32,929 bases of DNA from a virus, in IMG/VR virus record IMGVR_UViG_3300036770_002793, positions 1 to 32,929 of that record; one strand, written 5' to 3'. Below the pieces are notes generated by a model that saw only the letters and a list, made by a program, of their open reading frames with translations, ran no database searches and was not told where the DNA came from. This document shows positions 3,366 through 28,300 of this stretch, piece after piece. The position numbers and the translations under genes are program-made. Within the stretch, counting starts at the first letter, position 1; each line of letters opens with the position of its first letter.

Positions 3366-4877
3366 TTAGGAATGAAGGTTAATAATTCGTAAGATAAAAG
3401 AGCGCAAATTCGGCCGTTCGACCTCGTTCACGTTTTCGATAATGTTTTTGGCGGCAAGTTCCACATTTATATCAGTTATCAACTCGGCGTCCGTGTCCAG
3501 CGCACGCGAAACCAGTTTCGACGTAGCGGCGGGGTACGCGGGTATAACAACGGGTGCAACGTCAATCAAACGCGACACCTTGGTGATGGTGCGAATGTTT
3601 TGTTTGCCTTTGACCTCCCATTTGTCGGATTCGATCATAAATGCGAACGACGATTGGTTGACGTCGCCGCGCTTCATCAGTTCGACCAAATCGTTGGCGT
3701 ACGACGTGTTCGGTAGGTCGATTTCATATCCCAAACCAACCTCGTCAACAAAAATGCGTAGCGTTCCCGAAGACACGCGTCCGAGCAGATAGTTCCAATC
3801 GTGGTTGTAGAATCCACGAACGTCGTCGTTCATAACGGAATCGAACGCACCCGGTGCGATGTATTCAATGAACCCGCCTAAATCCTCGGACGGCGAATTG
3901 AATACGGCGGCATACCCGCGAATCGTGTTGCCCGTCACGTCGGCGCGTTGCGTCGTGATACGGCGTTCCATCACGGGAACGTTGTTTCGAACGTCGGCGT
4001 CGTACTTTTCAAGCGTTGAGAATCGGTGAACGACGTTCAACGGCGGTTGTTGTTCGACGTAGGCGGCCAAATCGGCGTCGTATTCGTAAATGCGGATTTT
4101 CGCGGCGGGGTCGTCTTCGGTTGCGTTTACAACGAACCCCGAATCGGCCTCTAATTCGCCTTCTACGGCGATTTCAATGACCCGACCATAGGCGAACCCA
4201 TTTGACGTATTCCAACGCACGAAATCGCCCAATTCGAGTTCACCCGGCATTGCGCGGCTGGCAACCAACACGCCAACGCCACCTATTTCAGCGATCACGT
4301 CGACGTTGTCGTCGTAGTGACGCACGATACCAAGTTCGTTCACCTTTTCAATCTTTTTTTCGTTTGATCCCGTAGCGTAAACGTACGATTCGGGAATGTC
4401 GTGTTCGGCCGCGAACGTCAACAACTCGTCGTCGTCTTCGCGCGCGGAAATTATGTAGATTTCGGAACCATCGTTTTGTTCCTTTTGCAATAGTTCGAGG
4501 CCCTTCATCGTTGTGAGCGTGCCGTCGTAATCAAACGACACACGCTCGCCAGCGGCGCGCTTGTATTCCTCGGACGTTTTGTAGATTTCCGATGCCCATT
4601 CGAGCATTTCATCACCACCCCACGCGGCGTACATTACCGACCCGCAAATTTCTTTTCCTTCGGAATCGATGAATTCGCCTTGGTCGTAAACCTTGGCGCG
4701 GGATAAAAACGAATAAATGCGGGGCAGACGTTCAACCGATACCTCGTCGCGGTCGGCCAATATGCGGGCGGTTTCCCAACCAACGGCGGTTCCGCACTCC
4801 GAATCGTATTCGGCGCGGTGATCCAACGCACGTTGTGCGTTGTCCGTTGCGGCTTGGGGATAGTCAGACCACGGCAT
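3366..4877 (-). CDS. Multidomain prohead maturation protease with HAD-phosphatase-like insert
   Basis: This 503-residue protein has four visible parts. Residues 1-105 form a small domain (YAAWGGDEMLEWA). Residues 111-205 look like a HAD hydrolase, with FDYDGT (D116, D118), IISAR (S144), NEKK (K174/K175) and HYDDN (D189/D190). Residues 210-290 form a short beta-rich domain containing VNATEDDPAA. Residues 303-455 form the capsid protease (S78/U35 type), with GYAAVFNSPSEDLGG, NHDWNYLLGR (H359), QSSFAF (S409/S410) and VVIPAYPA. HK97 proteases are normally about 200 residues, so more than half of this protein is extra. The protease part should cleave the capsid delta domain. The role of the phosphatase part is unknown. 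Confidence 0.88.
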   Translation of the reverse strand: MPWSDYPQAATDNAQRALDHRAEYDSECGTAVGWETARILADRDEVSVERLPRIYSFLSRAKVYDQGEFIDSEGKEICGSVMYAAWGGDEMLEWASEIYKTSEEYKRAAGERVSFDYDGTLTTMKGLELLQKEQNDGSEIYIISAREDDDELLTFAAEHDIPESYVYATGSNEKKIEKVNELGIVRHYDDNVDVIAEIGGVGVLVASRAMPGELELGDFVRWNTSNGFAYGRVIEIAVEGELEADSGFVVNATEDDPAAKIRIYEYDADLAAYVEQQPPLNVVHRFSTLEKYDADVRNNVPVMERRITTQRADVTGNTIRGYAAVFNSPSEDLGGFIEYIAPGAFDSVMNDDVRGFYNHDWNYLLGRVSSGTLRIFVDEVGLGYEIDLPNTSYANDLVELMKRGDVNQSSFAFMIESDKWEVKGKQNIRTITKVSRLIDVAPVVIPAYPAATSKLVSRALDTDAELITDINVELAAKNIIENVNEVERPNLRSFILRIINLHS

Positions 4878-4880
4878 AAC

Positions 4881-6086
4881 TTAAATTCCTTCGTCGGTTC
4901 CGGCGTTGACCATATTCAATGGCTGGAGGTACACGTCGCCACCTTCAACGTCGCCGAGGTTTTCTTTTTTGCGAATGTCGTTCACCGACAACCAACCCCA
5001 TTGGCGACCGACGGCGTACGCGTCGTATCGTGATTTAATGTCACCGCGAAGCAAACCTTCGAGGTTGAACTGAACGAACAATTGTGATTCCGTACCAAAC
5101 AACTTGGTCGTGAATTCTTGTTCCCAACGAACCGCCCACGGGCGGATCGTGTTGCGGACGAATTGAATACCTTGTTCCTCGATATTGGCACGCGTTGACG
5201 ATTGCGACAAATCGCCCAGCATATGCGGGGGAATCAAAAACCAGCGTGCGACCTCTTGCGTTTGGAACTGGCGCGTTTGTAGAAATTGCGCTTGGTCGGG
5301 CGGAATCGTCACTTTCTCGATTCGCATACCTTCTTCGAGGATTGCGGTTTTGTGCGAGTTGCCCAAACCGCCGTACGAATTGGCCCACGATGAACGCAAA
5401 CGGGTGTATGCTTCGTCGGACAATTTGCCGGGGTGCGTTAACACGCCACCGACGTTTGCGCCGTTGCCAAAGAATTCGGCGCCGAACTGATTTGCCGCCA
5501 AACCAATTCCAAAGGTTTCTCGGGCGGCCTTAATGGGTGACAAACCGACAACGCCGTCGAACGACAATCCGCAAACGTGGATCATTTCGAAATCGGCGTA
5601 AACCTCTTTTTTATCGATGTGGTAGAATTTCTCGCTATCCACGACCTTCACCTCAACACGCAAGGGGTGAATCGGAACCAATTTGGTTGGGCGTCCGGTT
5701 CCGTCGCGTTCGATGAATGCGTATGCGTTGCCGTGAAGGCATAGGTGCGCCATCATCGTTTCGCGAAACACCATTGACGTCATCATCGCGTTCGGGTGAC
5801 GAAGCAACGCATCGATTGGGTTGTTCGTCACCAGTACGGGTGATTCGTCCTCGATGGTGTAAACGTTCCACGGAAGTGAACCGATGGTTTCCGATAAAAT
5901 GCGAACTGACGCCCAAACCGCGGAAAATGTCATCGCGGATTTTTCGTTGACCGAAACACCCGTTTTCGAACGATCGTCCGAGAACAACCATTCGGCGGGT
6001 TTGGCCAACGACGTCGACGGGTTGTTCGGTGACGCGCGGAACAAACCGCGAACGCGGTCGAGGAATGTGTTTTGTGATTCGGCCAT
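4881..6086 (-). CDS. Portal protein, HK97 type
   Basis: This 401-residue protein shows the classic family segments: TFSAVWASVRILSETIGSLP near residue 60, LCLHGNAYAFIERDGTGRP, VVGLSPIKAARETFGIG, and the stem/crown region IPPHMLGDLSQSSTRANIEEQ. The length is normal. It forms the dodecameric DNA channel at the head vertex. It starts at an ATG 63 bases from the 92-nt hairpin element and is the first gene of the head operon. No clear promoter of the TAnnTTTG class is visible immediately upstream. Confidence 0.95.
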   Translation of the reverse strand: MAESQNTFLDRVRGLFRASPNNPSTSLAKPAEWLFSDDRSKTGVSVNEKSAMTFSAVWASVRILSETIGSLPWNVYTIEDESPVLVTNNPIDALLRHPNAMMTSMVFRETMMAHLCLHGNAYAFIERDGTGRPTKLVPIHPLRVEVKVVDSEKFYHIDKKEVYADFEMIHVCGLSFDGVVGLSPIKAARETFGIGLAANQFGAEFFGNGANVGGVLTHPGKLSDEAYTRLRSSWANSYGGLGNSHKTAILEEGMRIEKVTIPPDQAQFLQTRQFQTQEVARWFLIPPHMLGDLSQSSTRANIEEQGIQFVRNTIRPWAVRWEQEFTTKLFGTESQLFVQFNLEGLLRGDIKSRYDAYAVGRQWGWLSVNDIRKKENLGDVEGGDVYLQPLNMVNAGTDEGI

Positions 6087-6148
6087 TGTATGGGTTTCCC
6101 GTGCGAATGTACAAACTAATTCCCAACCAATGATAGGAATTGACCGAA

Positions 6149-6240
6149 AAAAGTTATTGACACGCGTTGTTGATTTTATATTTATTTATATATCCCTTTA
6201 GGGATATATAAATAAATATAAAATAAACGGCGCATCAATA
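6149..6240. repeat. 92-nt imperfect palindrome, copy 1
   Basis: A perfect 25-bp inverted repeat (6173-6197 with 6200-6224, centre CCCTTTAGGG) is extended by further pairing: GCG/CGC, and the outer TATTGA with TCAATA after a small internal loop. The AT-rich arms could extrude as a cruciform or fold in RNA. It matches 20155-20246 at 90 of 92 positions. The only two differences, 6180 and 6217, pair with each other in the stem (A-T here, T-A in the other copy). Candidate roles are replication origin, operator or transcript-processing site. Sequence alone does not decide. Confidence 0.95.
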
Positions 6241-6258
6241 TGTTCAATAATAACTTGT

Positions 6259-6299
6259 CAACAATTGCAGATTTTGCAACAATTGACCAAAATCAATTG
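6259..6299. promoter_or_regulatory. Direct CAACAATTG boxes beside hairpin copy 1
   Basis: CAACAATTG occurs at 6259-6267 and 6277-6285, 18 bp apart. A third CAATTG lies at 6294-6299. The boxes lie immediately to the right of the hairpin in non-coding DNA. They could be protein-binding sites or iterons. There is no equivalent cluster at copy 2. Confidence 0.4.
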
Positions 6300-6309
6300 G
6301 TTTGGCGTG

Positions 6310-6591
6310 TCACAATTCACGCTCGTACGCAATGATAAGGTGAATGTAGTACCCCATCAAATCGTAAATCGTGTCGATGGTATCGTCGTTCACGCCAACG
6401 GCCGCAATGCGGGACAACTTGTCGTCGATGCGTCCGCAAATGGATTCAACAGACGACGCCTTCGAGAAAACCCGCACCGGGTTTTGTAATGAATCGCCGT
6501 ACGTGGTGTTTTTTGACAATACCAAATCTTCGAGTTTCTCAATGATGGCTTGGATTTGGTCATTCGTGTTCGCTGATGTGTCGGTTCGCAT
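6310..6591 (-). CDS. Nmad1/DUF1599-like nucleotide-modification-associated protein
   Basis: This 93-residue protein contains EKLEDLVLSKNTTYGDSLQNP, then RIDDKLSRI and DTIYDLMGYYIHLIIAY. This arrangement (KN..YGDS, R..DKLsRi, DT..DL.GY) is characteristic of the DUF1599 family, which has been named nucleotide modification associated domain 1 from its association with modified-base gene neighbourhoods. I chose the start at 6591 because it is preceded by an A-rich stretch; an upstream ATG at 6618 is also possible. The gene overlaps the preceding 69-residue gene by about 32 nt and is the last gene of the packaging cluster. Confidence 0.7.
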   Translation of the reverse strand: MRTDTSANTNDQIQAIIEKLEDLVLSKNTTYGDSLQNPVRVFSKASSVESICGRIDDKLSRIAAVGVNDDTIDTIYDLMGYYIHLIIAYEREL

Positions 6592-6769
6592 TTTTGATTG
6601 AGTTTTGGAATGATTCATATCGGGAAAAACGGCGGCGTCCGTAAATCGAAACGTGCATCGATTCGACCGCCTCGTACGCCACAATCTTTGGCGTACCCTC
6701 GTCCGTGTAAAGGTTAAACAATCGCTTGAAGGAATCAAGCGTAGCGCATTGGTTTTCAAATGTTTGCAT
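6560..6769 (-). CDS. Small conserved phage protein, 69 aa
   Basis: No function recognised. The sequence contains FKRLFNLYTDEGTPKIVAYE and an aromatic/arginine-rich stretch IYGRRRFSRYESF. This type of small protein is seen near packaging genes in phages of Bacteroidota. Its start shares TAATG with the terL stop, so it is coupled to the large terminase. It overlaps the next gene out of frame by about 32 nt. Confidence 0.7.
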   Translation of the reverse strand: MQTFENQCATLDSFKRLFNLYTDEGTPKIVAYEAVESMHVSIYGRRRFSRYESFQNSIKNANRHISEHE

Positions 6770-8337
6770 TATAAATAACGTATACCAGTTGTTTCGTAAA
6801 CGGACGATGTGTCCCCACCCGACCGCGTGGCGGTCATATATTCACCGACCGCCATTGCCAGCGCCACAACGCCGTCGATTTTGTCGCCCGATTTGTTCTT
6901 TACAAACTTGACGTTCATCGCCTCGTCCATCTTCGTTTGCACGTTCGAAACCATCCAGCGAAGCATCGCGTTTCCGCCGTGGTGAAGTAATTTTTTCTTT
7001 ACCATTATTTCGATTTCCCGAATTGGTTGGGTCATTGATGCGAAACCTTGGCCGAACGGATCCATATCCAATCCCGCCTCGCCCAATTTCTGAACCAATG
7101 CAGACGAGTTCCACCGGTCAAAGGCAATCGAACGAATGTCGAACATTTCGCGAAGTTTAAGTATTTCTTTAAATAACACGTCATAATCGGTTGAGTTTCC
7201 TTCGGTAACAATCAACTCACCACGCGAAACGAACTGGTCGTACGACGCCCCCGTTCGACCGCGGCGTTGTTCGACGGCGGCGGCGGAAACGAAAAACCGC
7301 GTGACGACCTTCACCTCGCCGTCGTCCATCGGGAACACCAACACGAACGCGGTCACGTCGGACACCGACGCCAAATCCAAACCGCCATAGCACGGAACAC
7401 CGCGCAGTTCATCCAGCACAACGTCGCCCGCCGACGCCATCCAATCGGTATCGGTCAGCCATCCGTCGAACGCCGAAATCCATTGGTTGAGGTGCAATTG
7501 CTTGAACGCAATTTCCGACGTCGGCAATATGCGCGCCTCGGCCGCCATCTTTTCGAAATAGTCCAACCGAACCGACACACCGAGGTTCGGGTTTGCGACC
7601 GCCCACGTGTCGGGCGAAAACGGGTCGGCATCCATCGGCGCCTCGTAAATAACGGGCAAAAACGTTCGGTCGTCAATGGCACCCGTCAGCACGCGTTTGC
7701 CGTATTCGTACAATTCACGACACAACCCACCGCGGTCGATTCCCGCCGTGCTAATGCCCAAAATCAATGGTTGGGAACGTGCGCCCGTCGAGGTCGTCAA
7801 AACCTCCCACAACTCACGATTCGGTGCCGAATGCAATTCATCGTACAACACCGCCGACGCGTTGAATCCGTGCTTTGTCGATGCGTCCGCGGAAATCGCC
7901 TTAATGAACGAATTTGAATTGTTCAGCACGATCGAGTTTCGGTAAATTTTGCATTTGCCCCGCAATAGTTCGTTGTTCTGAACCATTTGCTTTTGCACCT
8001 CGAAAATGGCGTTCGCTTGTTCGCGGTCGGCCGCGGCGACGTAGATTTCCGCACCGGGTTCGTTGTCGCCGAATAGCAGATACAAACCGATCGCGGCAAT
8101 GAGGTTCGATTTGCCGTTTTTACGCGGTAGAAACACGAATGACGTGCGGTACTGGCGTAACCCATCCGAACCAATGGTTCCGAACAATTGTTCGATGTAC
8201 GTGCGTTGCCATTGTTCCAATAGGAACGGCTTGTTCGCCAAATCGCCCTTCACGTGCGTGCATAGGCGTTCAATAAAGTTCACCGCCCGCGCCGCACGTG
8301 CGGGGTCAAGTGTTGGTTTGGTTTTACGTTTGGCCAT
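6769..8337 (-). CDS. terL: Terminase large subunit
   Basis: This 522-residue protein contains the ATPase motor and packaging nuclease. The Walker A-like segment is PRKNGKS (residues 71-77) and Walker B with catalytic Glu is VLYDELH (163-169). The nuclease half begins PCYGGLDLASVSDVTAF (D321, D327), and a C-terminal acidic motif IDGVVALAMAVG follows. Length and motif order match the Terminase_1 (HK97/P27-like) class, which usually goes with cos packaging. It is coupled to terS through TAATG at 8335-8339. Confidence 0.96.
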   Translation of the reverse strand: MAKRKTKPTLDPARAARAVNFIERLCTHVKGDLANKPFLLEQWQRTYIEQLFGTIGSDGLRQYRTSFVFLPRKNGKSNLIAAIGLYLLFGDNEPGAEIYVAAADREQANAIFEVQKQMVQNNELLRGKCKIYRNSIVLNNSNSFIKAISADASTKHGFNASAVLYDELHSAPNRELWEVLTTSTGARSQPLILGISTAGIDRGGLCRELYEYGKRVLTGAIDDRTFLPVIYEAPMDADPFSPDTWAVANPNLGVSVRLDYFEKMAAEARILPTSEIAFKQLHLNQWISAFDGWLTDTDWMASAGDVVLDELRGVPCYGGLDLASVSDVTAFVLVFPMDDGEVKVVTRFFVSAAAVEQRRGRTGASYDQFVSRGELIVTEGNSTDYDVLFKEILKLREMFDIRSIAFDRWNSSALVQKLGEAGLDMDPFGQGFASMTQPIREIEIMVKKKLLHHGGNAMLRWMVSNVQTKMDEAMNVKFVKNKSGDKIDGVVALAMAVGEYMTATRSGGDTSSVYETTGIRYL

Positions 8338-8793: not shown

Positions 8794-9951
8794 TTAAAAT
8801 AATGATATTTGATTTTGTGCAACTTCTTTCCACGCGTCCGCATTGAACACGATCACGTCGGTCGAATCGGTTGATGGGGTGCCGATAAATTCAGTTGAAT
8901 AGAATTTTTTTGACGATTTCATTCCCCACATATTACCCGCCGACCATTTTTCCAATTGTTCTTCGGTATACTGAACCAACGATTTGCTGGTGCCGCGCCA
9001 TTCGTTTGGTGACGAAACCAATTTTTCGCCCAAACCGGGGTTGGTTGTTTTGATGTACATACGCATTCCTTCAGCAACGTATAACGACGAAACGTAATTC
9101 AAAAAACGGAACCCAACGCCCAACCCTTGGAAATCGGGCAACACAACCAATCGCGAAACACGAAACGCGTTTTTCAATGACCCGTGCGGGAACGGCAATA
9201 TACCAATGAATGCGACGGGTTTGTCGTTCCACGTAGCGCAAAAACATTTCGCCGCTTTATTCAATTCCTCGGTCAAATAATGATGTTGTTTGAATACGTC
9301 CCAAGTTTCATATCGGCATCGAAATACCTCCAATTCAATTTGCGGTCGACGCCGAAGGCAATCGCGTATTTCTACGCGCCCCTTGGTTGGTGAATAAACC
9401 CAGTCGGGTTGCAGCCATTCCATAATATCGAAATGACACGATGCAAGCACGATGCGTTTATTCGTTCGACGAATGAATTTTGCGATTGAATTGCTCATCG
9501 CTTTGGCGACGTCGCGGTCGACGACCGACGTGAATTCGTCAATCAACACAACGTCGCCGTCGTTTGCCGAACCAATCAACCACGCCATTCGTGCGCGGTC
9601 TTGTTCGCCGTTTGACAACGTATGGAACGGACGCAACCACGACGGCACCGACGCCAAACCCATCGACGACAAAATGTTCGCCGCTTGTTCGGGTGTGGTG
9701 AAATCGAAATTCGAAATCAATGGTTTGGATCCGTCGAACGTCGGCGTTTTGATTTCGCCGAACGTGCGAAGCAACGTTGATTTGCCAGTTCCCGACCCGC
9801 CGTAAATCACGCCGATGTTCCATTGGTCGGGCAAATACAAATTGTTCGCCACGCGCGTCACCGATTCGGCCGCATTTTGAATGTCAAATGCTTCAACCAC
9901 GTAATCAACGTATTCGTCGCGTTCAATTTTTGATTTTAATACAATATCCAT
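8794..9951 (-). CDS. ABC-class ATPase fused to GNAT acetyltransferase (COG2401-like)
   Basis: This 385-residue protein has two domains. Residues about 25-200 form an ABC-class ATPase: Walker A GGSGTGKST (51-59), signature LSNGEQ (112-117), Walker B DVVLIDE with E139, D-loop SVVD, and switch His173 in ASCHFD. Residues about 205-330 form a GNAT fold with the acetyl-CoA motif QGLGVG (275-280) after SRLVVLPDF. No membrane segments or transporter partner are present, so it is not a classical transporter. The order recalls COG2401, an ATPase fused to a predicted acetyltransferase. Mu Mom, a DNA-modifying enzyme, is also GNAT-like. It is the first gene of the packaging cluster and lies two bases before terS. 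DNA modification is my inference. Confidence 0.85.
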   Translation of the reverse strand: MDIVLKSKIERDEYVDYVVEAFDIQNAAESVTRVANNLYLPDQWNIGVIYGGSGTGKSTLLRTFGEIKTPTFDGSKPLISNFDFTTPEQAANILSSMGLASVPSWLRPFHTLSNGEQDRARMAWLIGSANDGDVVLIDEFTSVVDRDVAKAMSNSIAKFIRRTNKRIVLASCHFDIMEWLQPDWVYSPTKGRVEIRDCLRRRPQIELEVFRCRYETWDVFKQHHYLTEELNKAAKCFCATWNDKPVAFIGILPFPHGSLKNAFRVSRLVVLPDFQGLGVGFRFLNYVSSLYVAEGMRMYIKTTNPGLGEKLVSSPNEWRGTSKSLVQYTEEQLEKWSAGNMWGMKSSKKFYSTEFIGTPSTDSTDVIVFNADAWKEVAQNQISLF

Positions 9952-10067: not shown

Positions 10068-10559
10068 CTATGCGTACGTGAACAACTCGCCATCAATTTT
10101 GCGGCAATACTTGAACAAGTGTGTGGTGTAATTTTCATCACCTTTGTGCATTTTTATTTCGTCACGATGCGTCATTGGTACGTGATACAATTTTCCGTCG
10201 TACCATCCGAACACGCGCGTTTCCCATTCAATACAATCGTTCGACACCTCGACGATTTCACCGCGTTGTGGTTTGTAATCGATGTTTTCGGCGGGATCGT
10301 GGTTGAGGAACTCCCGCGCAATATCACCACCCAACAACGCGTCGGCCGCGGCGATGTACGCGTCGTGATCGGCGTCAACGTCGTGATTGACGTCACCGCC
10401 TTCGTTGTCAATACATACGTTGACGTAATCAAACCCAGCGGCGCGCATTGCGCGCTGGAATAGTTCGACGGCCTCGGCGGCGTTGACGTCGGAATGGTCG
10501 ACCTCGACGGACACGCGTTGATCGTAATGCTCGATCGTGATTCGGAATGGTTGGTTCAT
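10068..10559 (-). CDS. Hypothetical acidic protein, 163 aa
   Basis: No family recognised. The N-terminal part (RITIEHYDQRVSVEVDHSDV) looks like a small alpha/beta domain. The middle is very Asp/His-rich (DVNHDVDADHDAY), and the C-terminal part (GEIVEVSNDCIEWETRVFGW, then KLYHV) looks like a small beta barrel. It is the last gene of the accessory chain and ends with TAG just before a G-rich run on the coding strand. Its ATG overlaps the stop of the preceding mini-gene (ATGA). Confidence 0.75.
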   Translation of the reverse strand: MNQPFRITIEHYDQRVSVEVDHSDVNAAEAVELFQRAMRAAGFDYVNVCIDNEGGDVNHDVDADHDAYIAAADALLGGDIAREFLNHDPAENIDYKPQRGEIVEVSNDCIEWETRVFGWYDGKLYHVPMTHRDEIKMHKGDENYTTHLFKYCRKIDGELFTYA

Positions 10560-10687
10560 TTGTGGTTGGTTTTAATTGTTCTTATACATTTTGTGCAGTA
10601 AGCATATGTTCCATTTTCACTGACTTTGATTTGTGGTTGGGGGACTTTGCATTCGCACATATCGTTGCTTGGTTCTTCCTCTTTCAT
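10556..10687 (-). CDS. Mini zinc-ribbon-like protein, 43 aa
   Basis: This short frame starts at 10687 and encodes a 43-residue protein with four cysteines in two pairs, C11-E-C13 and C31-T-K-C34, the spacing of a small zinc ribbon. The last residues are TNHK, a variant of the TNEK tail shared by neighbouring genes. It has ATGA overlaps on both sides, which strongly supports real translation. Its role is unknown. Confidence 0.7.
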   Translation of the reverse strand: MKEEEPSNDMCECKVPQPQIKVSENGTYAYCTKCIRTIKTNHK

Positions 10688-10866
10688 TTCTCGTTGGTGT
10701 TTAATTCTTTAGCCAGTATAATTACAACGTTTATTGTAGTAAAAATAATTGCATAAACAAACCTTGCTGACTCGGTCCATTCGCTTGGATTCATATTCCA
10801 ATTAACAAATGCAATCAAAAGGTATTGGAATACCATTAGTGCTAAAAATGTAAGTACGTGTTTCAT
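10684..10866 (-). CDS. Small two-helix membrane protein, 60 aa
   Basis: It has two hydrophobic segments (residues about 4-22, VLTFLALMVFQYLLIAFV; and about 36-52, FVYAIIFTTINVVIILA) separated by a polar loop. It ends in TNEK. It lies in the AT-rich accessory chain with 4-nt overlaps on both sides. No function recognised. It is not near the lysis genes, so holin is not my first guess. Confidence 0.75.
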   Translation of the reverse strand: MKHVLTFLALMVFQYLLIAFVNWNMNPSEWTESARFVYAIIFTTINVVIILAKELNTNEK

Positions 10867-11081
10867 TTCTCGTTGGTTTTAAAGGTTTCATAGTAGTATT
10901 CATCGTTAAGGTCTATGCTATGGACACCATCAGACCATCCCGCATCATAAGCATCCATAATCTGCTCCTTCTCCATTTCTTTGGCTTGCTCAAATAAACC
11001 AACTGTTTGCATAATCTGTTCGTGCGTTAATATCGTGTCTTCTAACGCTTGTTGTAACCAATCTACTGCTGTCTGTTTCAT
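10863..11081 (-). CDS. MKQTAV-family small protein A, 72 aa
   Basis: This is one of three related proteins in this block that open MKQTAVDWL, contain a central AKEMEKEQI helix and end with ETFKTNEK. It is mostly helical and strongly charged. Such proteins recur in phages of Bacteroidota, but no function is known to me. The ATG overlaps the previous stop, and the last 15 nt form the conserved junction that starts the next gene. Confidence 0.8.
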   Translation of the reverse strand: MKQTAVDWLQQALEDTILTHEQIMQTVGLFEQAKEMEKEQIMDAYDAGWSDGVHSIDLNDEYYYETFKTNEK

Positions 11082-11269
11082 TTGTCGTAGGTTTTATAGC
11101 AGTAGTCGTAGAAATCTAATTCACTTTTAGATTCTACATATTTAGGGTACCAATTTTCAAGAACCGTTATATATACACTATTCGGTGTACACATAGTTCC
11201 CGTTGGGTTTTGATCTCGGTAGAGTTTATCTGCAATAGATATCAACTCTTGATGTGTTTGTGTTTTCAT
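11078..11269 (-). CDS. Hypothetical small protein, 63 aa
   Basis: No family recognised. It opens MKTQTHQELISIADKLY and has an aromatic-rich C-terminal half (ENWYPKYVES, FYDYCYKTY). It ends TYDK, a diverged form of the TNEK tail, with two base changes in the junction. It sits between two MKQTAV paralogues and is coupled on both sides through ATGA. Confidence 0.75.
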   Translation of the reverse strand: MKTQTHQELISIADKLYRDQNPTGTMCTPNSVYITVLENWYPKYVESKSELDFYDYCYKTYDK

Positions 11270-11490
11270 TTCTCGTTGGTTTTAAAGGTTTCGTTGTAGT
11301 ATCGCTCTGACGCTTCTTTAAGAATATCTCCACGTTTTGGACTTGCTTCAATATAGGTATTAAGAATCTGATGCATCTCCATATCTTTGGCTTGGATTAT
11401 TTCGTATTTGTGTTCTAAATAAAAACTTAGTCCGTAATCCCCTTTTTTAGATAATTCTTGGACTAACCAATCTACTGCTGTCTGTTTCAT
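11266..11490 (-). CDS. MKQTAV-family small protein B, 74 aa
   Basis: This is the second member of the MKQTAV family (MKQTAVDWLVQELSKKGDYG), with the central helix AKDMEMHQILNTY and the tail ETFKTNEK. The N-terminus, the C-terminus and the DNA of the junction are almost identical to paralogue A, while the centre has diverged. This indicates duplication followed by change, or recombination at the ends. Confidence 0.8.
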   Translation of the reverse strand: MKQTAVDWLVQELSKKGDYGLSFYLEHKYEIIQAKDMEMHQILNTYIEASPKRGDILKEASERYYNETFKTNEK

Positions 11491-11693
11491 TTCTCGTTGG
11501 TGTTAAAGGTTTCGTTGTAGTATTGTTCTGCTTCATCCTCAAAACCTTGTTGAAGTTCTCCTAATATGAAAGCATCAATAATCTGCTCCTTCTCCATTTC
11601 TTTGGCTTTTTCTAATTTAATTTTCCAATAAGGGACTTTCCAATCTATTACTGGCATTTCATTAGCCAACCACTCTACTGCTGTCTGTTTCAT
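11487..11693 (-). CDS. MKQTAV-family small protein C, 68 aa
   Basis: This is the third member (MKQTAVEWLANEMPVIDW), with AKEMEKEQIIDAF in the middle and ETFNTNEK at the end. It follows the HNH nuclease gene through an ATGA overlap whose junction carries one base change. Function unknown. The three copies within about 830 bp are the clearest paralogue group in this genome. Confidence 0.8.
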   Translation of the reverse strand: MKQTAVEWLANEMPVIDWKVPYWKIKLEKAKEMEKEQIIDAFILGELQQGFEDEAEQYYNETFNTNEK

Positions 11694-11995
11694 TTCTCGT
11701 TCGTTTTATTATGCGCCTCACGCCCCGATTTGGCGTTGTGGCACGGGTGACACATTGTTTGAAGGTTTGCCCATTCCAATGCTTTGGTTGGGTCATCGTT
11801 CACGCGAACGATGTGGTCGACGACGGCACCGACGCGACCGCATAGCACGCACGTTGGATTCTCGCGGATAAACATTCCACGCAGTTTGCGCCACGGCGAC
11901 GACTGGTAGAACGTTGAGTTGGCGTTGCGGCGTCCTTTGTCGAACCCCGATCCCGTCAACCACGGGCGTTGTTTGCGTTGCGGTAGGTTAGGCAT
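11690..11995 (-). CDS. HNH endonuclease
   Basis: This 101-residue protein has WRKLRGMFIRENP, then C49-V-L-C52 and C82-H-P-C85 as structural zinc ligands. The HNH residues are H61 (VDHIV), N77 (EWANLQ) and H86 (CHNAKS). Free-standing HNH proteins of this type work with HK97-like terminases at cos sites. Here the gene lies about 2.9 kb upstream of terS inside the accessory chain. The ATG at 11993-11995 shares TGATG with the upstream stop; a TTG three bases earlier is less likely. The gene is GC-richer than its MKQTAV neighbours but still ends in TNEK. Confidence 0.92.
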   Translation of the reverse strand: MPNLPQRKQRPWLTGSGFDKGRRNANSTFYQSSPWRKLRGMFIRENPTCVLCGRVGAVVDHIVRVNDDPTKALEWANLQTMCHPCHNAKSGREAHNKTNEK

Positions 11996-12222
11996 CAAAG
12001 TCGGTGTTGCATTAACGTCAAGAATGATTCAACGGCATCGCGTTCGGCCTTCGTGTCGAACTGGTCGAGGTTGTATGTGACCTCATCAATTAAGGTTTGT
12101 TTTTTATTTTCGGCGATGTCGCGTTCCATTTGCAATTGTTTCGTCAAATGTTGAATTTTATATTCGTACGATTCCACGCGCAGTTCAAGCAGTTCGTGCA
12201 GTTCTTTAGTTGTGAGTTTCAT
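11995..12222 (-). CDS. Coiled-coil small protein, 75 aa
   Basis: It is almost entirely helical and charged (MKLTTKELHELLELRVESYE, IQHLTKQLQMERDIAENKK), predicting a coiled coil over residues about 5-50. No family recognised. Its start uses a variant of the accessory junction (two changes). Its own end lacks the TNEK tail because the next gene overlaps it through TGATG instead. Confidence 0.75.
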   Translation of the reverse strand: MKLTTKELHELLELRVESYEYKIQHLTKQLQMERDIAENKKQTLIDEVTYNLDQFDTKAERDAVESFLTLMQHRL

Positions 12223-12362
12223 TTTTCGTTGATTTCAGTTGTTAAGTATTCCTTAAATACCGACAAAGCGTGAGCGTACGCAAGCCGCACTTCAGTTGTC
12301 ATAGCATCTTGCGCGTATTTTGTAATGCGCTTTTCTATTTGTAGATATTCTTCGTTTGTCAT
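12219..12362 (-). CDS. Hypothetical small protein, 47 aa
   Basis: The frame from the ATG at 12360-12362 encodes MTNEEYLQIEKRITKYAQDA, a further helical stretch (VRLAYAHALSVFKEYLTTE) and the tail INEK, a variant of TNEK. ATGA overlaps exist at both ends. The perfect fit between two coupled genes is the main evidence that it is real. Function unknown. Confidence 0.7.
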   Translation of the reverse strand: MTNEEYLQIEKRITKYAQDAMTTEVRLAYAHALSVFKEYLTTEINEK

Positions 12363-12628
12363 TTCTCGTTGGTGTTAAACATTTCATTCCAGACTAAATT
12401 AGAATCATTTAAATCTCCGTAATTTAAGTAGCTTATGTTATCTCCGAAACCAATAAATGTATCTTTCTCTACTTCAAGCATTGATTCTGATAATTTAATG
12501 GCTGTTTCTAAACCGATTTTCACACCTCTCCAATAAGTGTCATTACCTACCTCAATTGAATGTTCTTTGACCACTTTATCTAACTGTTCTGTTAGATTAT
12601 CAATCAATTCTTGCATTGGTGTTTTCAT
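12359..12628 (-). CDS. Hypothetical small protein, 89 aa
   Basis: It opens MKTPMQELIDNLTEQLDKVV and has a central TYWRGVKIGLETAIKLSESM helix and the tail EMFNTNEK. The last eleven codons carry the same junction DNA as the MKQTAV paralogues, although the body looks different. It may be a distant relative. AT-rich composition matches the 10.6-11.7 kb block. It has ATGA overlaps at both ends. Confidence 0.8.
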   Translation of the reverse strand: MKTPMQELIDNLTEQLDKVVKEHSIEVGNDTYWRGVKIGLETAIKLSESMLEVEKDTFIGFGDNISYLNYGDLNDSNLVWNEMFNTNEK

Positions 12629-17369: not shown

Positions 17370-17520
17370 AATTTGGTAAGTTCATTTCGCAAAATGCGAC
17401 CATAATTTCGATGTCGTCGCACAACCCGACCAATTCGTCGGATTGCCAACGCTCGGCCAGCGACCGCGCATTTTGCGCGAACTCAGCAACGCGGTTCAGT
17501 CGTTCGGTAACGTCAGCCAT
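17263..17520 (-). CDS. Hypothetical helical protein, 85 aa
   Basis: The start at 17520 (MADVTERLNRVAEFAQNARS) was chosen because a longer frame would lie inside the nuclease gene. Residues 1-55 look helical (ELVGLCDDIEIMVAFCEMNL). The tail (IRHTGERDEICPYSRLGG) is encoded by DNA that also encodes the N-terminus of the VRR-NUC protein. No family recognised. Because of the long overlap, only the first 50 residues are well supported. Confidence 0.55.
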   Translation of the reverse strand: MADVTERLNRVAEFAQNARSLAERWQSDELVGLCDDIEIMVAFCEMNLPNYALTTYLAGTAPIRHTGERDEICPYSRLGGSETDV

Positions 17521-18230
17521 TTCGGCGGCATTAAAACGTTGATGTCGTTGTCGTATGTCGCGGGCATTCCGTCCCATTGTTTGAATCGCTCGGTAATTTG
17601 TATGAGTTCAAATATACCCAATTCAATCGATGTTTTGTCCATTAAATAAACCATCACGTTGTGCGGGCGTGCGGCCTCGACGCCGACAAAGTAGAACTCG
17701 TCCAAACCAGTTGCCTTGCAGTACAACGCCGCTTGCCAATGGTATTTATTCCCGAACACCCAACGTTGAAATTCACGTGGTGAAACGTCTTGCGTGGTTT
17801 TTAGGTCGGCCACGAACGTATCGCCGACAAGGTCGACGAACCCGCGGAACGGCAGTCCGTTGAACTTAAATTCCACACCTTGTTCGACGGCCGTTTTGCG
17901 TGAGAACAATTCGACCGCGGCGGGGTGTTGATGCAATGCCGCCGCCATATTTTCGATCACCTCGAATTCGGAATCTTTGAGGATTTCACGTTCGCCCGCG
18001 GCGGATTCAACTTCCTTCCACGCCAGCGTGCCGCGACGAATGTCGGGTGCGACGAGGTAACGGGATTCGAATTCGTCGGGTTCCAAAACAAACGTGTGGA
18101 CGGCACTACCGCGGGTCATTGCGGCGGTCGTTTCCTTTTGTTTGTTTTTGTACGCGAGGAAATGGTTTGGCGATTTCGCGAATTCTTTGATTGACGAAAA
18201 CGAAAGCGGCAAGTAGGGCGACCGCTTCAT
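17496..18230 (-). CDS. Exo8/RecB-type PD-(D/E)XK exonuclease-like protein
   Basis: This 244-residue protein has the order typical of RecE/Cas4-like exonucleases: LSFSSIKEFAKSPNHFLAY at the N-terminus, RGSAVHTFVLEPDEF (H45), FRGFVDLV (D133), VADLKTT (D142-L-K144) and YHWQAALY (Q166, Y170). It likely resects DNA ends for recombination-dependent replication together with the gp2.5-like protein encoded upstream. No separate Beta/RecT annealase is visible. Its start overlaps the small membrane protein gene by ATGA. Confidence 0.88.
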   Translation of the reverse strand: MKRSPYLPLSFSSIKEFAKSPNHFLAYKNKQKETTAAMTRGSAVHTFVLEPDEFESRYLVAPDIRRGTLAWKEVESAAGEREILKDSEFEVIENMAAALHQHPAAVELFSRKTAVEQGVEFKFNGLPFRGFVDLVGDTFVADLKTTQDVSPREFQRWVFGNKYHWQAALYCKATGLDEFYFVGVEAARPHNVMVYLMDKTSIELGIFELIQITERFKQWDGMPATYDNDINVLMPPKWLTLPND

Positions 18231-18821: not shown

Positions 18822-19246
18822 TTTGTTTCCTTTTGTAAATTTTTAAGCAACATTTGTAAACGCGCAATTTCGCGTTGTAGGTATTCCGCATCTTGTGTGC
18901 GTGAATGGTATTCGACGTCCTCGCAAAACATTTTGTAATTCCGAACGTACGCGGGGTCGACGTGGCGTAGTGTATTGCCCACCATTGCGTGCGCTTCGTT
19001 GTGAATCATCAACTGGTGATGAATCGACGAATGGTTGCGGGCGACCAATGAACCGGTTTGCATTTGCGACAAACCGATTTCCCAGTACGCATACGCCACG
19101 ACCATACGACGCAATTCGTTGATGTTGGCCATTCGCGACGTGCGTTTGATAACGCCCGCCGGTAGGCCGGCCCAGTCCTCGGCGAACTGAACCAACCATT
19201 CGGCAAACATTAAACGATCGGCGACGTTAGAACGGGAAATTTTCAT
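18818..19246 (-). CDS. DnaA domain IV-like DNA-binding protein
   Basis: This 142-residue protein contains MVVAYAYWEIGLSQMQTGSL followed by VARNHSSIHH (residues 68-77). This corresponds to the RDHSTV signature helix-turn-helix that DnaA uses to bind its boxes. There is no AAA+ domain, so it cannot act as a full initiator. The C-terminal part is a coiled coil (DAEYLQREIARLQMLLKNLQ). It may bind a phage origin or act as a regulator. It lies directly after the ssDNA-binding gene (20-nt overlap), which supports a replication role. Confidence 0.8.
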   Translation of the reverse strand: MKISRSNVADRLMFAEWLVQFAEDWAGLPAGVIKRTSRMANINELRRMVVAYAYWEIGLSQMQTGSLVARNHSSIHHQLMIHNEAHAMVGNTLRHVDPAYVRNYKMFCEDVEYHSRTQDAEYLQREIARLQMLLKNLQKETK

Positions 19247-19742
19247 CCTCGGTTGCGTTCACGGGTTCGTTGTTAAACGTTGGTGCGGTAGGTACCACGC
19301 CATCAAAAAAGTCGGACGGCGTACCGCCACCCTCGCCACGTTCGGCGAGCGTTAGAACGATAACGTCGTTCACCCATACCGACAAACCTTTTTTGCCGTT
19401 GTATTCGTACGCTTTGACGATGCAATTCACCTTCAACGTTGATCCGTTGTTGATGTAATCGTCGAACGTCGCTTTGTGCGTGTCGAACACGTTGGGCGGG
19501 TTGTTGGCTTTGATGCGAACGGCGGGAACCTCGTATTTGGGCTTTCCGTCCACACCTTTGATTTGAACGAACTTGTATGCGCCAAGCGCTTCAAGTTGCG
19601 CCACGGACGCTTCGTCCAGCATCAAATCGCATTGGTATTTACCGGCCATTTTGTTTGGTCCGGATTTGGGCGTCAGTTGCGCCCATTGGGCGGTGCCGGC
19701 AAGAATGACGCGGACACCTTTTTGGAAATCGGGTTTGTTCAT
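19227..19742 (-). CDS. gp2.5-like ssDNA-binding protein
   Basis: This 171-residue protein resembles the phage family related to T7 gp2.5 (DUF2815 type). It has an OB-like start (GVRVILAGTAQWAQLTPKSG), KYQCDLMLDE, VPAVRIKANNPPNVFD and LKVNCIVKAYEYNGKKG. The acidic tip EDENFPF with terminal Phe is the hallmark of ssDNA-binding proteins that recruit partners. It is the first gene of the replication operon, behind the promoter at 19774-19804. Confidence 0.85.
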   Translation of the reverse strand: MNKPDFQKGVRVILAGTAQWAQLTPKSGPNKMAGKYQCDLMLDEASVAQLEALGAYKFVQIKGVDGKPKYEVPAVRIKANNPPNVFDTHKATFDDYINNGSTLKVNCIVKAYEYNGKKGLSVWVNDVIVLTLAERGEGGGTPSDFFDGVVPTAPTFNNEPVNATEDENFPF

Positions 19743-22222: not shown

Positions 22223-22344
22223 TTTTGTGGTTTTTGGGTTGGTACAAATATACGTGCATTTTTCAAATTTTCGAACGTGATGGTGACGATTTTGCCACCA
22301 TCGCGTTCAATCTTTGCTTTAAGTTCGGGCGTTAGTTTTTTCAT
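22219..22344 (-). CDS. Mini-protein after the fibre gene, 41 aa
   Basis: The ATG at 22342-22344 shares TAATG with the fibre stop and opens MKKLTPELKAKIERDGGKIV. The ATGA overlap with the next gene supports translation. It is basic and has no recognised family. Confidence 0.65.
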   Translation of the reverse strand: MKKLTPELKAKIERDGGKIVTITFENLKNARIFVPTQKPQK

Positions 22345-25300
22345 TATGCGGTGACGTTGTAACCGGGGAACACATAATCCGTACCATCAACGTTGATGCG
22401 CAACCAAATGTCGGGCTTGCCCAATATGATTTCTTGTGCGCCCGATTCGCCGTAAACATAGTTTAAACTGGAATCAAAATAGTTCACTTGCGGCGCGTTG
22501 TCGGCGGCATCGATTCGAACGTCGCCCGCGACGTGCAGTAAATGCGACGGCGCGGTTGTGCCGATACCAACGTTGCCCGCCGATGTGATTCGCATACGTT
22601 CAACGGGTGCGGAATCGGTGTTCAATGATCGCGTGGAAAAATACATTCCACCGGGCCATCCCGATACGCCGTCTTGATATGCGGTTATGCGCGTTGATGG
22701 ATTCGTTCCCGCGTTGAAATGGTTGATGGCCAAATGCGTGACGCCTTGAACCGACCCCGAATCGCCCGCGGTATTGCCGACGCGAAGCACGTCAACGGCG
22801 TTGGTGTCCGACGCCACTTGCAGTTTGGTAACGGGCGAGGTAGTGCCGATGCCGGTGTTTCCGTTGTCAAAATTTACGCAAAATCTTGTCGCTCCAGCAT
22901 TATGGTCGTAAACCCTAAATTGTCTGTTGCTACCTCCCGAACCATATCCGTGAATAATTGTGTGGTATTCGGGGTCTGCGGCATACGTACTCAATCCCCA
23001 ATTTGGGTCGCTCATTGAATACGTCCTAAATCTTGCACCTATTGATGGTACGGCATTTAATCCAAACGATGACGTAGAAAAAATATCTCCATCAACGTGA
23101 AGTTTAGTAGCGGGCGACGTCGTACCAATACCGACGTTGCCCGACGGATCAATACGCATTGATTCAGTCGATGATGCACCTCGGCGGAAAACTAATGAAC
23201 CAGCGCCAGCGGTTCCGCTTAAATTGACGTTTATATATAAATCTGCGCCATTTTGTTGGAATTGTGCATACGACGTAGAATTGGCGATTCCAATCAGCGA
23301 ATTTGATGCATCGTAAACGCCGAGTTTTCCGTATCCGCTATTCGTCGTACCAATTGCGACGTTTCCGCCTACGGCAATTCGCATCGCTTCGGAAGCATTT
23401 GGCGCAAACAAAATCGGGTGCGACGAGTTCGTTGCGATGTAAAGTCCACCGGAATTTGTATCAATGGCGGCAACACTACTGTTCCCGTCGTACATACGAA
23501 TGGTTCGGCCAACTGAATCAGCGCGAAGCGTAATCGCTGGGCCATTGATGTTCGATGCGTCAAAGTATGCCTTTGACCCACCCGTATCAATTGGAATGCT
23601 TGTGGTTGTGGCGTCGTTGGTCAAAAATGCCCCCGAACGAGTTACGCCAGCGACGTCAAGTTTCGTTCCCGGATCCGTCGTACCAATACCGACGTTTCCG
23701 TTGTCTTTGATTCGCATACGCTCCGACGGCGCAGACCATCCACCCGAACCATCGTTGGTAAAGAACGCCAAATGTGCTTGCGCATATGAATATATTCCAC
23801 CGCTTTGAAGCATTGCGATTTTCGCACCTTGCGCCAGTCCATAGTGCTTGTAAAAAATGAATTGCGACAACGTTTGATTGTTCGTGGTCGATTCGATGGC
23901 GATCGTTGACGTGATGGAAATCGTCGGCGTGGATTGCGCCACCTCTAAAATAGATTGCGGCGCGGTTGTTCCGATGCCGACGTTGCCCGATGTGTCCATC
24001 GTTAGATTTACGCTTCCGTCAATACCAAGTTTTATTGGTTGACCATACGACGTGATAAACAACGGACGCGTTGAACTTTCAATTCTATTGTTGATTGTAT
24101 CCCAGTAACCGATTGCCATATTCGGCAACGCTATTCGGTAGTCAACATTCAATTGATCACTCACGCGCGCGGTACCACTTACGTCAAGTTTGTATCCCGG
24201 CGCCGTCGTACCAATACCGACGTTGCCGCTGGCGGTGATTGTTACACGCTCACCATTTTGTGAATCAGTGAACGATAAACGCCCGTCGGCCGCTTCGCGA
24301 CCAAGTTCCCAGTAATACGATGAATTGTATGACAATCGCAAATGGTCGCCATTGGTGCTTGTGATGTCAAGTTTTGCCGACGGCGCAGTTGTACCAATGC
24401 CGACGTTTGCACCTTCATTTTGAAGAATCAAATTCAAAGGCACAGACGGGTTGTCTTGTGCATAACCTTGAATGGCGATGTTTGACGGACTAACATTAGA
24501 AAATTTAACGGCGGCAACTGACCAAGCGTCTTCGAATCTTGCGATTGCAGTATTGTATGCACCAGTCGCAGTTGATACGTGCAAACGCGACGTAGGCGCA
24601 GTCGTACCAATACCGACGTTGCCGGCATTCGTGATACGCATACGTTCCGTTCCGTCCGGATTAAATCGAATATCTATACCACTTAAATATAGCGGAATCC
24701 AACCGGTAGTTCTATTGTATGCTTGAACAACACCTTGCGTTCCATCAAAACCGAGTTCGAGGTTTCCACCAGCGGTTCCAGTTGCAAATCCATTAAGAGT
24801 TAAACCATTAGCCCTTGCGTTTCCATTTACGTCAAGTTTGTATGCTGGCGACGTCGTACCAATACCAAGTCGACCTTGTTCGTCAAGCGTCATAGTTACT
24901 CCGGCAGACACCCCATAATGGTGTGTCGCAAAGTTCAAACGTTGGCTATAATTTCCACCAAGCGTTGTCGATTCAATTGAAATACCCGCGATAAATTGGT
25001 TCGCAAAGGTGTTGTTTGCATATCCAATGTATTTGGTTCCGGCTTCGTTGTAATTCCCAAGCCTTATATTTCCGGCAATGTCAAGTTTTTCATAAGGGTT
25101 TGTCGTACCGATTCCGACGTTGCCGCCCGAAGTAATGTACATTCGAATACTTGCACCAGTTTCGAATGTCATATTATCGGCAAACAAAAACAACCCTTTG
25201 TATACCGAATTTGTGCGGTCGTATGAACCTATGTATGACGTATTTGAATTGTAATTTAATTCCAAACCAGCGTTGGCGGTTGGCCAATCGCCGCCGGTTA

Positions 25301-28300
25301 TTTTAGCGGCGCCCCCAAGTTGAAGTTTCGCCGCCGGCGTCGCCGTACCAATACCAACGTTGGTTCCGTTGTCAAACACCAACGAATCACCCAACGCCGA
25401 ACCCGACGTCCACTTTGATAAATAGTTCGTCGTTCCGCCGCCCGTGATGGTTCCGCCCGACGACGGCGACGTGTTCTCGATTGTGAAGTTCGGATAAGTA
25501 CCCGTAATGGCGATACCCGTCGACGCCGTCAGCGCCACCACTTGATCGGGTGCGGTATTCTCAATCGTAAAATTGGGGTAAGTACCGGTGACGCCGATTG
25601 CAGTCGACGCGGTCAGCGCAACCACTTGATCGGGTGCGGTGTTCTCAATCGTGAAGTTGGGGTAAGTACCCGTTACACCGATTGCAGTCGACGCGGTCAG
25701 CGCAACCACTTGATCGGGCGCGGTGTTCTCAATCGTGAAGTTGGGGTAAGTACCCGTAATACCAACGCCAGTCGATGCCGTCAGCGCAACCACTTGATCG
25801 GGCGCGGTGTTCTCAATCGTGAAGTTGGGGTAAGTACCCGTAATACCAACGCCAGTCGATGCCGTCAGCGCAACCACTTGGTCGGGTGCCGCGTTCGTGA
25901 TAACGCCCGTCGTGTTGTTGTACGTGATGCCCGTACCCGCCGACAACGCCGCACGCGCGCGGGCGTTGGTGAAGTAAAGGTTTGACGTCCCTTCGCCGAT
26001 GTTATCGGTCGTCAGCACGACAACGCCCGTTTGCCCGTTCACCGACGTAACCGGTGCCGTGTCGTAATCCGTCCACGACGCGGTGATGGTTCCGCCGTCG
26101 CCTTGCGTTAGCGTCAACGTTTTCGTCGTCGTTCCCGCAACGGCCGCCGATACGATGCGGTCGTTGTACGCCGTGTCCCATTGTCCCGTTTGCGTGGTCG
26201 TGACAATCACGCGGCCAGCGTCCAACGAAAACACACCCGTCGTGTTGTTGTACGATATGCCGTCGATGGTTTCGGAAATGGCCGCACGTGAACGCGCGTC
26301 GGTGTAGTAAAGGTTTGTCCCCTCACCAATGTTCGTGGTCGTGCCCGCTACGTTTTCCCACCGCGACGTCGTGGTGTTGTACTGAAGCAAATCGTTGTCG
26401 GCGACCGACGTTATTTGCACGTCGGACGCGTCAGAAACGCGTGTGCCGATTTCCGTACGAACGGCCAAAACGCCCGACGTTGAATCCGAACGAACGACAA
26501 ACGCCACCGCCAGTTTGAGGTTCGGCGCCGATGGTTCGGTCGTAGTTAATCCACCCGCAACGGCGGGGTTGCACCACAACACCGCACCTTCGGTGTAAGC
26601 AGACGTATTCAGTTGGCGAATCTTGCCAAACGTGGTCACGTAACCCTCGCCGCCGTCGACGATGTTTTCCGCCGCAATGCCCAAAAGGAATCGTGCGGGA
26701 ACCGAACCATCCGCGATCATTGGTGCGGCCAAAATGCGTCCCGATGCGCCAAGCGTTCCCGCGGCGCGAACGGCGGTACCCTTTGTGATGGTCGAACCGG
26801 TTTGGTTTTTAACGTACCAAAATTCTTCTTGACCAACTTGCATTACGACGTTTGAGTTCAAACCGACGTCGATGGTGCCGTCGTCTTGCGACCACACGAT
26901 TTGCCCTTGCACGGGCGTGGTGTTGTACGTGGTGTCCAACTGCACGTACTCGCCCGTAAGCGGACCCGTCGACGTCACCGACCCCGTGATGTTCACGTTG
27001 TTGTTGAACTGCGAAACGCCGTCGACGTCCAAACCAGCATCCAACGTGACGTCGCCCGTGACGTTCAACGTTCCGTTTACGCGTGCGCCGGTTGGGTTGG
27101 CCGTTGAACCAAGTTGTTGAAACGGCCCCATTTTTTGTTCGTCAACGTTGACGACCATACCGCCCACGCGGCCGACCTCCAGCACGCCGTCGATGTTCAC
27201 GTCGTTGTCGGCCCCGCCGTCGGTTAATACCGAAATTGGTGTTCTAATGTCGTCCAACGGCGACGCAACGCCCGATTGGTATGCAATCATAAACCATTCG
27301 GCCGACCAACGATCGTTTTGTGCGATGAACGAACCCGAATTGTTTAGGTAATAACCGCCATCGAAAATCAACCGACGAAGTAATGGCGAAATGTTTTGGA
27401 TTTCACCGGAGAATCGGCGTATTGGTGCGGAATGCAACCCGACCATTTCCGCAACCAATAAGTTCAGTATTTGATTGCCCGACCCCGTAGACCCGCGACG
27501 GAATGACACACCCGAAACCCACGATGTGCCGTTGTAAACCGACAAATCGCCCGTTTGAAACAAACCATTTGAAATGCGGGTCGTTCCCAACGACAATTCA
27601 ATTTTTGAATCAACGTTGGCGTTGGTGTTTTGCGCGCGGTAGGTGATTGACGTCGATTCATCGCGTGAATCGTCCAAACGCGCAACGATGAACGTCACCG
27701 ACCACGTGTCGGTTTGGTGCGGTTCCAAAACGTATGTCGTCCCGTCAACTGGATTGATGTTCGTGTAATGTTCCGCCGTAATACGCAACGTTCCCGAGGT
27801 TGGCAATTTTGCCGTCGTGATAACTGGCGACGGATTGTACGACAATTCACCGAATACGACCTTTGCGAACGGCGTGTGGTAGTAGTAATACCCCGCGGTC
27901 GTCGACCACGCGGCGTTTCCGTAAATACTATTCGCGGCGAATCCGTTGAACGCGCGGTTGTAGTAATAATACAACCCCGGCGTTGTGGCGGATTCGATGC
28001 GAATTTGCATACGCCATACCACCGCAATGTTTCCGTCGTTCGTTGTCGCACCCGTTGACGACGTGATATTGTAGTTGTGCGGGCCGTAGAATTTCAATTG
28101 CGTGGACGTCGACGCACCAATGATGCCCAGCGTTTTCGTCGGTGCCGTCGAACGGAACGTGTACGGCGCCGATTGTGAATTGAATTTGTCGCGTGCATAT
28201 TCAACCGATACCGAACCAACGGCGGGCAAATACGTGAATTGGCCGCCCGCCAATCGCGCGGCATTTGTGGTTTGGTCAATCGTCACGTCGTCGTTCACCG

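Follow-up and report, generated by a model that had tools for sequence, protein, structure and literature searches.

Why should small genes of different kinds on one viral genome be joined by the same short DNA sequence? The question is raised by the IMG/VR virus record IMGVR_UViG_3300036770_002793, analysed here over its 32,929 nucleotides (the window). On the minus strand the 15-mer ACCAACGAGAAATGA is exact at 10684, 10863, 11266, 11487 and 12359, and occurs with one change at 11690 and with two changes at 10556, 11078 and 12219. All nine copies of this junction element are confined to 10556-12628, and no others were found in the 32.9 kb at up to three mismatches; shuffled sequences gave a mean of 1.95 and a maximum of 6. 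The same five exact and four near copies had been listed in a preliminary description of this DNA, and all were recovered at the same coordinates.

The explanation judged probable is an array of one-gene cassettes joined by an element of about 23-28 bp that serves both as short homology and as gene punctuation. Copies of the element would recombine inside it, whether they lie on two phage genomes or on the same one. A swap at this place would yield a properly ended and properly started gene, and one reading frame of the element would leave the residues TNEK on the upstream protein. Whole genes would be swapped, gained or lost in this way between co-infecting phages with unrelated backbones.

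The junction element and the change of gene content at its copies

At each of the nine copies two successive small genes overlap as ATGA, the stop of the first with the start of the second. The preliminary description had placed TNEK, a stop and the next ATG at every junction; the overlaps are indeed present at all nine, but TNEK is found at only six (genes ending at 10684, 10863, 11266, 11487, 11690 and 12359), the tail being TNHK at 10556, TYDK at 11078 and INEK at 12219. The 15-nt unit is likewise real but too short: alignment of sites gave a full conserved unit of about 28 nt, AAACCTTTAACACCAACGAGAAATGAAA, extending from roughly -22 to +5 relative to the ATG, and conservation across this stretch is far above that around the starts of other genes in these loci. 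The described array of mini-genes exists but is discontinuous. The HNH endonuclease gene starts at a TGATG overlap without the motif, the first array gene (start 12628) also lacks it at its start, and so do the genes that adjoin the array.

The element was found in well over 100 IMG/VR contigs. The 15-mer gave at least 120 matches in IMG/VR, many contigs carry 2-5 copies, and up to 17 copies occur per whole record, in tight arrays on one strand. The fetched loci hold 502 sites with a start codon at no more than 5 mismatches in 23 positions, compared with none in the reversed sequences. Isolated 15-mer matches with short or absent frames (e.g. L019, L022, L069, L110 and L118) were taken to be chance. 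In L003, L073, L076, L090 and L119 another conserved gene pair (..TIEITNEK / MSIITVHKFIN..) has the 15-mer at its joint but no array; this may be coincidental or go back to an old capture event.

Gene content changes at the junctions. Among pairs of distinct motif sites with the same downstream gene, the upstream DNA was unrelated in 638 of 700; among pairs with the same upstream gene, the downstream DNA was unrelated in 548 of 612. At other open reading frame (ORF) starts in the same loci, which served as the control, the DNA across the start was unrelated in 1045 of 3395 pairs with a common downstream gene and in 212 of 2515 with a common upstream gene. Identity reached background at about -22 on one side of the motif junction and at +6 on the other. 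Blastn blocks compared between different lineages (at least 92% identity over at least 100 nt) had 61% of their ends inside the motif, against 9.5% at shifted positions. The 15-mer had been proposed as a seam for the exchange of gene cassettes, at which gene content should change exactly, and the pairs and block ends bear this out.

Every locus is a metagenome-derived viral contig and the repeat is short, as would suit swaps created by assembly chimeras at short metagenome repeats. This explanation was rejected, and is regarded as very improbable, on the recurrence of alternative joints in independent metagenomes: 49 gene pairs were seen in two or more metagenomes, and seven downstream genes have at least two alternative upstream partners, each confirmed in at least two. 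The reading frames are also intact, and motif variants go with their own gene.

The window was compared at the nucleotide level with five other phage records, and similarity was almost restricted to the array, with identities of 97.5% over 204 nt (G002), 95% and 87% (G003) and 93% (G014). Cassettes of G003 and G014 are 98-99% identical to each other, with no backbone similarity; across phages with unrelated backbones, cassettes reach 87-99% nucleotide identity. By homology, G003 is a Flavobacterium elemo-like phage, with terminase and portal of that type, and G014 is a Nonlabens P12024-like phage, with another portal and with one gene that resembles a gene of the P12024 phages. The terminase of the window belongs to a third kind. 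The terminases of L099 and L137 are 84-86% identical to that of the window, yet these loci have different arrays at the same place. As far as genome comparison can establish it, these data show exact seams and exchange across unrelated phages. The non-array similarity between the window and G003 comprises only short parts of a 2255-residue tail/fibre protein and a stretch near 21.7-22.2 kb.

Most of the small array proteins have relatives in other viral contigs. The 63-residue product has 97-98% amino acid identity in unrelated-backbone phages (L054/L215, L010, L059 and L100), and the predicted membrane protein 98% in G002. Relatives of the four-cysteine protein occur in 23 loci, the closest reaching 91-93% amino acid identity, and its gene is common to G003 and G014 at 93-95% nucleotide identity. 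In the MKTPMQ protein a stretch of 50 residues is 76% identical in L030, and about 40% identity extends over the full length in L075. The HNH gene has relatives in just two fetched loci, both of the window's own lineage, and is a lineage gene whose end became joined to the junction element. The HNH nuclease is the one array product for which searches of Pfam, PHROGs and PADLOC yielded a function.

Conservation as DNA, the TNEK tail and translation

The shared tail could itself be what is conserved. TNEK is common to six window genes of different kinds and is read in frame, with the stop at TGA, at 255 of 452 sites, as would be expected of a C-terminal tag that functions in degradation, localisation or the binding of a partner and is selected at the level of the protein. 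Such a tag would show amino acid conservation with free codons; it was rejected, and is held to be highly improbable, because the codons are nearly invariant. A scan that covered all synonymous spellings of FNTNEK-stop found identical codons in 103 of 117 distinct tails, compared with about 1% predicted by codon usage. At 87 of the 452 sites the upstream gene stops at the internal TAA of the motif, in another frame, and the remaining sites mostly stop upstream of the motif or have no clear upstream gene. Conservation is equal in all three classes (mean identity 0.89 with the in-frame tail, 0.91 with the TAA stop and 0.87 in the rest), and synonymous changes make up the same share, with synonymous to nonsynonymous counts of 45:140 where TNEK is coding, 13:54 in the TAA class and 24:74 in the rest. 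The window HNH protein ends in NKTNEK and its ortholog in the close relative L099 in GREAHTK, and the tail is of low confidence in an AlphaFold2 (AF2) model of a MKQTAV protein. The element is conserved as DNA, not as protein, and on this evidence TNEK is a by-product, as the preliminary description had proposed; retention of TNEK by way of differing codons, which would have spoken against that proposal, is not the pattern found. In L049, L097, L212:5221-5403 and similar cases, cassettes finish before or at the motif start, and there the element serves the next gene as a short 5' leader.

Besides the next ATG, the element holds two stops, TAA and TGA, each in a frame of its own. Its consensus folds at 0 kcal/mol, without stable RNA structure, and an Rfam search gave no match. 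Stops in two frames together with an ATG in unstructured RNA make a good stop-restart joint for any inserted gene. From its position a role of the motif in translation initiation is plausible, and the downstream gene is probably translated by coupling across the ATGA overlap.

The motif might be kept solely as this initiation or coupling signal, with illegitimate recombination reordering the genes and selection retaining those products that preserve the signal. The motif is located at the ATG, a downstream ORF of at least 30 codons follows 94% of 443 sites, and low RNA structure favours initiation in Flavobacterium johnsoniae (PMC6847099). The same work reports that A at -3 and at -6 favours initiation in that species (PMC6847099); the motif has G and C at these positions, so that initiation strength alone is no obvious reason for its conservation. 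The conserved stretch from -22 to +5 goes far beyond the start context of other genes, genes beside the array start without the motif, and motif variants follow the upstream gene on the 5' side and the downstream gene on the 3' side, as crossing over within shared copies predicts. A further seam, in the middle of the MKQTAV genes, is not a start site. A purely translational role is therefore considered unlikely.

This further seam is found in the commonest cassette family (MKQTAV...QAKEMEKEQ...YYNETFNTNEK), as a conserved 29-nt block in mid-gene. In 69 distinct genes the flanks of the block comprise 33 N-halves and 33 C-halves in 57 combinations, and 123 similarity-block ends fall at the block versus 58 by chance, about twofold. 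The AF2 model has three helices (mean pLDDT 75), with the block in the long central helix. These small proteins show, in their sequences, recombination by halves at the intragenic block, which would act like the junction element and exchange protein halves. Mosaics with the same N-half and different C-halves, and the reverse, are seen at window 10863-11693, L212:5851-6057, L067:7561-7767 and L137:4038-4259, and MKTPMQ/MKTAIQ genes sometimes share the C-halves of MKQTAV genes.

Crossovers, candidate machinery and probable hosts

Up to about -13 the variable bases of the motif go with the upstream cassette, and from about +3 they go with the downstream one; the bases between these positions are weakly linked to both. 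Crossovers are therefore distributed over about 15 nt (about -12 to +3) and have no single point, a pattern that homologous exchange inside the element would produce and a fixed cut would not; the linkage of the variants is consistent with such recombination. The minimal efficient pairing segment is 23-27 bp for Redbeta and 31-34 bp for RecA, and the length of the element fits the former and lies under the latter (PMC3945230). A RecE-type nuclease was found in 29 of 42 motif records and in none of five chance-hit contigs, and the window has two candidate recombination partners, a RecE/exonuclease VIII-type exonuclease and a Gp2.5-like single-stranded DNA-binding/annealing protein. A RecE-type exonuclease acting with single-strand annealing, possibly with host help, would most likely be the machinery. 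In G014 the RecE-type gene directly precedes the cassette array (L212:3099-3869 and 3886-6964), and by coordinates the two are also close in G008 and G021.

One-gene cassettes with a conserved boundary and a single orientation, and the HNH gene inside the window's array as a candidate enzyme, would also suit a site-specific recombinase or nuclease that recognises the motif and moves the cassettes as an integron or homing system does. This is quite improbable: tyrosine integrases (PF00589) and serine resolvases (PF00239) were detected in none of 30 motif records, control searches being positive, the element has no stable hairpin, and neither the spread of crossovers nor the restriction of HNH relatives to the window's lineage agrees with it.

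Several points weigh against homologous exchange within the element as the explanation. Cultured phages, queried with the cassette proteins and with a 49-nt motif-plus-gene sequence, gave no match. The loci were selected by the motif, and the counts do not give exchange rates; the exchange events are read from sequences alone. RecE was not detected in 13 of the 42 records, some of which are fragments, and the five chance-hit contigs used as the RecE control do not give a general frequency of RecE in such phages. The PHROG 112 annealing protein was recognised in the window alone among the motif records, and a RecT profile gave sub-threshold matches, except for one chance-hit contig without a real array. 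With the annealing partner unrecognised in the other records, the assignment of enzymes is therefore an inferred one. The G at -3 and the C at -6 weaken the translational part of the explanation.

The relatives of the motif carriers infect Flavobacterium, Cellulophaga and Nonlabens, and no Shine-Dalgarno signal was seen at the other genes of the motif loci. The hosts of the motif phages are for these reasons probably Flavobacteriia. GTDB species genomes, searched for hosts with proteins and with a 21-nt pattern, gave no match.

The features of the window are listed in Table 1. Beside the terminase genes, at 8794-9951, lies an ABC-type ATPase fused to a GNAT acetyltransferase domain; it has a single relative among the fetched loci (L173, 35%). 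The 2255-residue tail/fibre protein at 22344-29111 contains repeats (APDQVVALTASTG..., GIGTT.P). A stretch at about 50-130 is repeated at about 32804-32886, near the opposite contig end, so that the record may represent an almost complete genome whose ends overlap.

Table 1. Array genes, junction elements and candidate recombination genes of the window
Feature	Position	Strand	Remarks
Cassette gene, MKTPMQ family, 89 residues	12359..12628	-	C-terminal FNTNEK
Junction element	12357..12384	-	precedes gene 12219-12362; 15-mer exact
Cassette gene, 47 residues	12219..12362	-	no relative in fetched loci
Junction element	12217..12244	-	precedes gene 11995-12222; 2 changes in 15-mer; upstream tail INEK
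Cassette gene, 75 residues	11995..12222	-	no TNEK tail at end; no relative in fetched loci
HNH endonuclease gene	11690..11995	-	PF01844 6.6e-8; phrog_589 2e-25
Junction element	11688..11715	-	joint of HNH gene and MKQTAVEWL gene 11487-11693; 1 change
Cassette gene, MKQTAV family, 68 residues	11487..11693	-	
Intragenic conserved DNA block (QAKEMEKEQ)	11581..11608	-	in gene 11487-11693
Junction element	11485..11512	-	precedes MKQTAVDWL gene 11266-11490; exact match to 23-nt consensus
Cassette gene, MKQTAV family, 74 residues	11266..11490	-	
Junction element	11264..11291	-	precedes gene 11078-11269; 15-mer exact
Cassette gene, 63 residues	11078..11269	-	
Junction element	11076..11103	-	precedes MKQTAVDWL gene 10863-11081; 2 changes
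Cassette gene, MKQTAV family, 72 residues	10863..11081	-	AF2 model: three helices, low-confidence tail
Intragenic conserved DNA block, second copy	10960-10988		in gene 10863-11081
Junction element	10861..10888	-	precedes membrane-protein gene 10684-10866; 15-mer exact
Cassette gene, predicted membrane protein, 60 residues	10684..10866	-	
Junction element	10682..10709	-	precedes gene 10556-10687; 15-mer exact
Cassette gene, four-cysteine (zinc-ribbon-like) protein, 43 residues	10556..10687	-	
Junction element	10554..10581	-	precedes gene 10068-10559; final junction of array; 2 changes
RecE/exonuclease VIII-type exonuclease, candidate recombination partner	17496..18230	-	phrog_412 5.7e-51; PF12684 2.4e-27
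Gp2.5-like single-stranded DNA-binding/annealing protein, candidate recombination partner	19227..19742	-	phrog_112 3.9e-10

Significance and comparison with known systems

The clean exchange of small accessory genes between phages is an old question, and at the majority of mosaic joints no boundary sequence can be recognised (PMC3029335). In the present arrays the joint is visible, is repeated hundreds of times and allows crossovers to be mapped to single bases, therefore the question of homologous versus illegitimate recombination becomes directly testable. The motif is also a handle for retrieving swapped mini-genes from metagenomes, possibly genes of host takeover or anti-defence, and the MKQTAV family is a natural set of half-protein combinations. 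The chances are about equal for and against a mobile pool of mini-genes that otherwise unrelated Flavobacteriia phages would share by means of a universal stop-start seam under selection for recombination, with the second seam, inside the commonest gene family, as a combinatorial generator of small proteins. An analogy in which the pooled mini-genes and the generator of N- and C-halves would be the phage counterpart of variable-region shuffling is put forward with the same even balance of belief and doubt.

The array resembles integron gene cassettes in its mostly one-gene units, conserved boundary and one reading direction. It differs from them in that none of 30 records has a tyrosine recombinase, no structured attC-like site is present and crossovers do not fall at one point. 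The work on promoter-early stem-loop (PeSL) cassettes of T4-like phages is reportedly that of Arbiol (2010) and Comeau (2014), and lambdoid boundary sequences are said to go back to Susskind and Botstein (1978) and Clark (2001). Like the junction element, PeSL is a small repeat reported to shuffle genes between related phages; PeSL, as cited in PMC4503421, carries a promoter and a stem-loop terminator, whereas the element is a stop/start junction of overlapping genes and, with its consensus at 0 kcal/mol, has no stem-loop terminator. The Bacteroidota -7 element TANNTTTG was not seen by eye in the consensus.

Lambdoid boundary sequences, as cited in PMC3029335, are short, conserved and proposed as points of homologous recombination between modules, and a short conserved sequence at borders where homology stops is also what was found here. 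Those sequences flank functional modules, whereas the junction element lies between individual small genes and can reach 17 copies in one genome. Recombination that exchanges protein parts is known as domain mosaicism in phages (PMC10684548); here, by contrast, genes and half-genes are exchanged at recognisable conserved DNA blocks, and the proteins are very small.

No report of a single stop/start seam exchanged gene by gene across unrelated phages was found in the open-licence literature. The statement that such an array is not described holds, in that literature, for this element, but start-associated sequences (SAS), PeSL and lambdoid boundary sequences are precedents for the general idea. 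In cluster K mycobacteriophages the SAS/ESAS are short conserved non-palindromic repeats of 13 bp with the consensus GGGATAGGAGCCC; they contain a Shine-Dalgarno core and are located 3-7 bp before the start (PMC3203893, PMC12699233). They occur in one orientation at the starts of non-structural genes, sometimes taking in the upstream stop codon, are common to genes of different families and are absent from the host genome. The junction element shares the single orientation directly at the starts of non-structural genes. In contrast to SAS, its consensus has no Shine-Dalgarno core, both the upstream stop and the ATG lie within it, it also codes for a tail, and it is shown as a breakpoint of cassette exchange between unrelated phages. 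The element is unlike each of these three systems in sequence and anatomy. SAS are the nearest in position and distribution (PMC3203893), PeSLs, as cited in PMC4503421, are nearest in proposed role and lambdoid boundary sequences, as cited in PMC3029335, nearest in mechanism.

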